From assembly GCA_023261695.1 (NCBI GenBank), contig JAHFON010000005.1, forward strand, positions 1 to 48,403: a stretch of DNA of 48,403 bases. The letters are read 5' to 3'. The notes beneath the pieces are model-generated. The model was not told the DNA's origin and did no database searches. It was given only the letters and a program-made list of their open reading frames with translations. The position numbers were made by a program, and so were the translations under genes. This stretch comes from Candidatus Moraniibacteriota bacterium. GTDB taxonomy: Bacteria > Patescibacteriota > Minisyncoccia > Moranbacterales > UBA1568. Shown here in pieces: positions 11,016 through 11,139 of this stretch (positions within the stretch are counted from its first letter, which is position 1; every line of letters begins with the position of its first letter).

Positions 11016-11139
11016 CAATCAAGACGCAACAAGACCTTCTTACAACAACAGTAGTAGGGTGATTCCTTTCGAGTTTCGGATAACATTGCCGGCTCCAAAC
11101 TGGCAGACAATCGCGCGTAAACAGCCCCCAGCTTCATAA
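11016..11139 (+). other. Displaced 3' end of the serine recombinase gene (encodes C-terminal tail only in the circular form)
   Basis: In the frame entering from 21379: (ta)c aat caa gac gca ... = (Y)NQDATRPSYNNSSRVIPFEFRITLPAPNWQTIARKQPPAS then TAA at 11137-11139. Confidence 0.8.

Follow-up and report, generated by a model that had tools for sequence, protein, structure and literature searches.

Where does the gene of a recombinase end when its element lies inside another gene? The question is raised by a 48,403-nucleotide stretch of DNA from a Candidatus Moraniibacteriota bacterium (contig JAHFON010000005.1, hereafter the window), a single contig of an 860-kb genome. In the window, an integrated element interrupts the host gene ychF, and the large serine recombinase (LSR) gene at the right end of this element runs across the boundary into ychF. 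From the anatomy of the locus, we hold with high confidence that the recombinase gene is split by integration at its own attachment site (attP), near its 3' end, and that its native last codons lie at the opposite end of the element. The features concerned are these:

11013..21376, + strand: integrated element of 10,364 bp in ychF codon 6 (core AGTCGGTA at both ends and a dyad centred between the core's two Gs)
10997..11013, + strand: displaced native ychF 5' end, ATGCCTCTCAAAGTCGG, encoding M-P-L-K-V-G (rejoining it to 21376 restores the ychF N-terminus)
11008..11015, + strand: core AGTCGGTA of the left junction (attL), with GG at 11012-11013 (second copy at 21372-21379)
11014..11139, + strand: detached native C-terminal recombinase tail, YNQDATRPSYNNSSRVIPFEFRITLPAPNWQTIARKQPPAS, with stop TAA at 11137-11139 (profile hidden Markov model (HMM) match and in-frame join)
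19755..21377, + strand: LSR body, 541 residues ahead of the crossover (PF00239, PF07508, PF13408)
21378..21542, + strand: chimeric recombinase extension, 54 residues of out-of-frame ychF and a stop (reading of the open reading frame (ORF); predicted disordered, with a predicted local distance difference test score (pLDDT) of about 30)
21352..21401, + strand: right junction (attR), with the left attP arm ATGTC at 21352-21356, core GG at 21376-21377 and then the host half (core match and dyad)
21352..22410, + strand: rebuilt ychF with the element-supplied start ATGTCGAGTTCATCACTGAGAGTC (MSSSSLRV), overlapping the recombinase in the +1 frame (TIGR00092, 395 bits, 21355-22410)

The integrated recombinase ORF (19755-21542, 595 aa) passes the core and enters ychF out of frame. 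Joining the inner ends of the element at AGTCGGTA carries the same frame on to the TAA at 11137-11139 and yields a 582-aa recombinase ending SRYNQDATRPSYNNSSRVIPFEFRITLPAPNWQTIARKQPPAS, while joining the outer flanks at the core yields an ordinary ychF start. The original prediction, made from the letters alone, had proposed this ORF, core join and stop, all of which were correct. It had also proposed that integration swaps the native tail for about 54 residues of frame-shifted ychF, and the count is indeed 54. The rebuilt ychF start, the dyad of the attachment site, the breadth of the family and the protein-level selection on the tail, described below, go beyond it.

The host side of this reconstruction can be compared with genomes of the same genus. 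In 11 of the 12 congeneric genomes whose ychF was read, the gene starts M-[SA]-L-[KQ]-V-G-I-V-G, uninterrupted and with no recombinase ahead of it, and none of the 12 holds a close relative of the window recombinase. Their ychF, as judged by these starts, is the empty site that the reconstruction predicts. The putative host site (attB) is the part of the ychF start that encodes M-x-L-x-(V/I)-G, and across the elements the reconstructed attB reads as normal ychF (MLSIGIVG, MSLSIGIVG, MPLSIGIVG, MKLSIGIVG, MALKIGIVG etc.). In the integrated state, the left-arm ATG of attP becomes the new ychF start, and only a few N-terminal residues of the host protein are lost. The assembly comprises 43 contigs, and a contig misassembled from two loci could in principle produce such a junction. 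Yet the same anatomy is found in other, separately assembled genomes and metagenomes, and the window contains the native 5' end of ychF that the empty-site genomes lead one to expect, so that we give misassembly next to no probability.

We then considered whether the detached tail is the recombinase's own. Homologues of the circular protein have C-termini of two classes, one with a native IPFxFxIxLP tail and the other with out-of-frame ychF. The native-tail class comprises 16 listed proteins of the form R-H-G-x-N-T-T-R-H...I-P-F-x-F-x-I-x-L-P-P-P, such as the Bradyrhizobium protein P0113 (RHGQDATRHRIPFEFRIELPPPRTQR), whereas most remaining homologues, the closest ones among them, terminate in a short peptide such as RNRRSAECGEVHAF, the ychF P-loop read out of frame. 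The deciding test set beforehand had been whether homologues align through the PFEFRITLPAP tail. P0113 and others do so, which places attP inside the recombinase coding sequence (CDS) and the native tail in the circular form only. A profile HMM was built from the 16 intact homologue tails, with no detached tail among them, and searched against 15,116 translated ORFs from the window and the compared loci. It matched the window ORF at 10981-11136 with E=1.8e-10 and detached tails at other loci with E down to 1e-17.

The detached copies, whose I-P-F block lies 9-18 codons beyond the core, show pairwise identities of 0.73/0.82/0.39 at the three codon positions (14 elements). This is the pattern of a translated protein, and the detached tail is, by this measure, under protein-level selection. 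Since the integrated element offers the tail no start codon, it must be in the circular state that this selection acts. The 41 open codons had been called protein-like in the original prediction, and the same arrangement recurs in many other elements. Their small number is the sole point in favour of an open frame that arose by chance or was left over from a different recombinase. We rejected both, at a probability close to nil, on the match to an independent profile, the in-frame join at the dyad centre and the recurrence of the tail at this position in 14 non-redundant elements.

The arrangement extends well beyond the window. We examined 151 loci, in 111 of which ychF directly follows the recombinase. 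The missing tail was present at the far end, on the same strand, in 16 of these 111 (14 non-redundant, window included; E 1e-7 to 1e-18), and for many of the others the available sequence ends before the far end of the element. Whole genomes, with up to 20 kb of flank, added one strong case (L198, E=1e-19) and about seven weaker tails, most of them preceded by a ychF start, in distant elements whose recombinases are only 32-38% identical. The split arrangement, as read from these tails, is present in at least 15 independent elements. The frame relation is the same in all 99 non-redundant ychF loci, every recombinase running out of frame into ychF. In 98 of the 99, ychF gains an in-frame new start, which in 73 is an ATG exactly 8 codons before the glycine. 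Nine loci carry an attached native tail, and none of them adjoins ychF; intact-tail relatives (Bradyrhizobium, Bacteroidota, others) still carry the unrecombined site. Those recombinase relatives that have names come mostly from Patescibacteria, or Candidate Phyla Radiation (CPR), bacteria. Viral contigs contained no close relative (best 34% identity) and no match to the strict attP pattern, and in plasmid and phage collections the relatives among the matches listed were at about 25-35% identity only.

Three further observations concern individual loci. An unrecombined attP with the ychF-type ATG occurs away from ychF in L040, L041, L045, L050 and L143, which are Bradyrhizobium, Limisphaerales, Bacteroidetes and metagenome DNA. 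In L052 (near 4458) and L054 (near 11548), related recombinases enter a different +1-frame ORF at the same position, which suggests that these recombinases may have other target genes. Finally, L188 (reversed) carries two recombinase tails, at 9338-9499 and 10098-10229, each with a ychF start ahead of it, as expected of tandem insertions.

The attachment site itself is a ~50-bp imperfect palindrome, ATGTC...GG...GACAT. When 93 distinct left and 14 distinct right halves are aligned on the ychF glycine codon, ATGTC (-24 to -20) and GACAT (+21 to +25) are the arms of an exact dyad whose axis lies between the two Gs. This centre has a dyad score of 15.3 and the next-best centre one of 1.3, and we infer that GG is the crossover dinucleotide. 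The first part of the detached tail, from 11014, doubles as the right arm of attP. A single ~50-bp sequence is thus legible in three ways, as a putative recombination site, as codons of the recombinase and as the start of a host gene.

Some observations weigh against this reading of the locus. Identity between the attL and attR cores is short, amounting to GG alone in some elements, and the cores of L082 and L138 were placed by motif. The weakest of the distant tails have E values of 0.05-0.08. None of the ychF elements was observed as a free circle, and the intact-tail relatives are found in other contexts.

Family and predicted structure are consistent with an LSR. The enzyme has resolvase, recombinase and zinc-ribbon domains (PF00239, PF07508, PF13408), with long helices and a coiled coil predicted, and its site, with a short core and a ~50-bp attP whose inverted arms are centred on GG, is of the LSR type. 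The native tail was modelled with AlphaFold2 in a homologue, P0040, standing in for the window's 582-aa circular protein. The best PDB matches of this model are LSR-att complexes. It has a hairpin at 504-522 and a terminal strand at 550-559 (IPFEFIIKLP) with pLDDT about 86, connected by a linker of low confidence that corresponds to the attP-coding part, in a model of modest overall predicted template modelling score (pTM 0.42). In the AlphaFold2 model of the window chimera, residues 533-595 are all below pLDDT 50. Integration would thus remove a predicted terminal strand and leave disorder, and the lost segment is positioned after the catalytic, recombinase, zinc-ribbon and long-helix regions of the P0040 model. 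Replacement tails range from 6 to 83 residues, with 14, 9 and 6 the commonest lengths and the window's 54 atypically long. No particular new tail is therefore maintained. With the native tail selected and predicted to form a strand, this points to the loss of the native tail, rather than a specific gain, as what would matter.

Integrases split in this manner are known among tyrosine recombinases, to which both the Int of Myxococcus phage Mx8 and the SSV-type archaeal integrases belong, the gene of the latter being partitioned in two at a tRNA gene by integration. The present element shares the partition with the SSV type, but here the enzyme is a serine recombinase, the target is ychF and only the last ~40 residues are lost. 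In Mx8, attP lies inside int, and the integrated allele gets a new 3' end and a changed specificity (reviewed in PMC6070905). Our element resembles Mx8 (and Mx9) in having attP within the integrase CDS, such that integration renews the integrase 3' end, and the C-terminus of the integrated allele is host-derived in all 99 non-redundant ychF loci. It differs from Mx8 in its serine rather than tyrosine recombinase domains, and in that attP also supplies the new start of the host GTPase gene, an arrangement spread over a deep clade. In the integration-dependent immunity of mycobacteriophages, attP lies in the repressor gene and integration alters the C-terminus of the protein (PMC8092301). The likeness is an element-encoded protein whose C-terminus is changed via attP in its own gene; there, however, the repressor is split and the integrase is of the tyrosine type, whereas here it is the recombinase itself.

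Other systems are related by enzyme or by target. The best NCBIfam match of the recombinase is SCCmec CcrB (NF047343; 107.6 bits over residues 8-524, far below the family cut-off of 900), which has a different target. The pneumococcal prophage PPH005 has its attB between a DUF951 gene and ychF, and the same review states that ychF expression may be under the control of a defective prophage whose int lies immediately upstream of the gene (PMC8637289). In contrast to our case, the PPH005 attB is intergenic, not within ychF, and the integrase is of the tyrosine type. Searches of the open-licence literature on LSRs with an internal attP, on LSRs that target ychF and on Patescibacteria mobile elements found no report, a scope that makes this weak evidence of absence. 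An integrase gene with an internal attP is thus a known principle, and in that literature the serine recombinase case is without a precedent that we could find.

What might the split do? In the circular form, attP encodes an in-frame linker into the conserved terminal strand I-P-F-x-F-x-I-x-L-P. Recombination of attP with attB removes the last ~40 recombinase residues, leaving them untranslated at the other element end, and puts in their place a mostly short stretch of ychF read out of frame. The left-arm ATG reads in frame into ychF, so that ychF is translated from within the 3' end of the recombinase gene. The splitting of the recombinase gene and the rebuilding of ychF follow from the sequence. 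Beyond this, the full-length enzyme would be the integrating form, and the tail-less chromosomal enzyme would be altered, most likely weaker or less stable, such that the element stays integrated until a directionality factor intervenes. Taken alone, the step of altered activity seems to us marginally less probable than its opposite.

A regulatory switch and a by-product of start-codon donation carry about equal weight as explanations of the tail swap. The geometry may have been selected solely because it provides ychF with a start codon and probably with transcription, in which case the swap would have no regulatory role and the chimera would work like the native enzyme. Such an origin fits the in-frame ychF start gained in 98 of 99 loci (73 via the attP-arm ATG), the variable replacement tails, which are not themselves selected, and the predicted position of the lost segment behind the catalytic, recombinase, zinc-ribbon and long-helix regions. 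It fits less well with a native tail conserved at the protein level beyond attP and recognisable at LSR identity as little as 32%, which implies that the full-length form matters at some stage. We put its probability a shade under even.

Tail loss may instead change activity as in Mx8, for example by preventing re-integration, or excision without a directionality factor, so that the element is kept and tandem insertion is limited. The new int 3' end and changed specificity on Mx8 integration (PMC6070905) offer an analogy, and the tail is selected at the protein level and predicted to fold. The two tandem tails at L188 argue against it, in that repeated insertion is not fully blocked, and the chimeric enzyme must still allow excision unless another copy supplies the enzyme. 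This explanation, too, falls just short of an even chance. A functional switch of directionality or stability by tail swap, as put forward in the original prediction, is plausible. The full proposal, in which an old, widespread serine recombinase clade edits its own C-terminus, the full-length enzyme integrating, the altered tail-less form holding the insertion and one ~50-bp site serving three purposes, is one that we advance tentatively, as possible and somewhat less than evenly probable.

The remainder of the element and its surroundings hold two further entries:

11219..11339, + strand: LOOT RNA (RF03000), just 3' of the detached tail (cmscan 78 bits, gathering 46.4)
11391..19740, strand not given: cargo of TPR-like, SNase+Excalibur nuclease, SEC-C protein, SymE-like protein, catalytic-domain-only resolvase and unassigned genes (Pfam scan)

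A hairpin with T-run had been noted directly after the tail stop in the original prediction, but a terminator scan found none; a T-run is present, followed by the LOOT RNA. Among the 14 ychF elements for which both ends are known, 10 contain LOOT RNA, in either orientation (window, L034, L038, L039, L046, L048, L062, L082, L105, L113), which suggests an element-borne RNA. The SymE-like protein (PF08845) is encoded at 18455-18724. The catalytic-domain-only resolvase (19282-19740) lies immediately upstream of the recombinase and is about 40% identical to its N-terminus; we rejected it as a general partner or directionality factor, such upstream pairing being found in just 3 of 96 ychF loci. Outside the element, the 3' end of ychF is present twice (22350-22415 and 23090-23155; 66 bp, 97% identical), flanking a 740-bp cassette that encodes a nucleotidyltransferase (PF18765) and a HepT-like ribonuclease (PF01934). 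This ychF thus carries a second insertion, at its opposite end. Two group I introns lie in the 23S rRNA gene (window 59-332 and 1150-1346).

A separate directionality factor is the usual explanation of how serine recombinases are held in the integrated state and released when needed. Here, integration itself yields a changed enzyme, and every element provides a natural pair of native and tail-less forms, so that the role of the C-terminus is directly testable. Genome-derived sequences of this clade lack the native tail, and a tool built from an integrated copy would have been cloned with the wrong C-terminus. As for the target, the element rebuilds a conserved host gene, ychF, by means of a start codon in its own attachment site.
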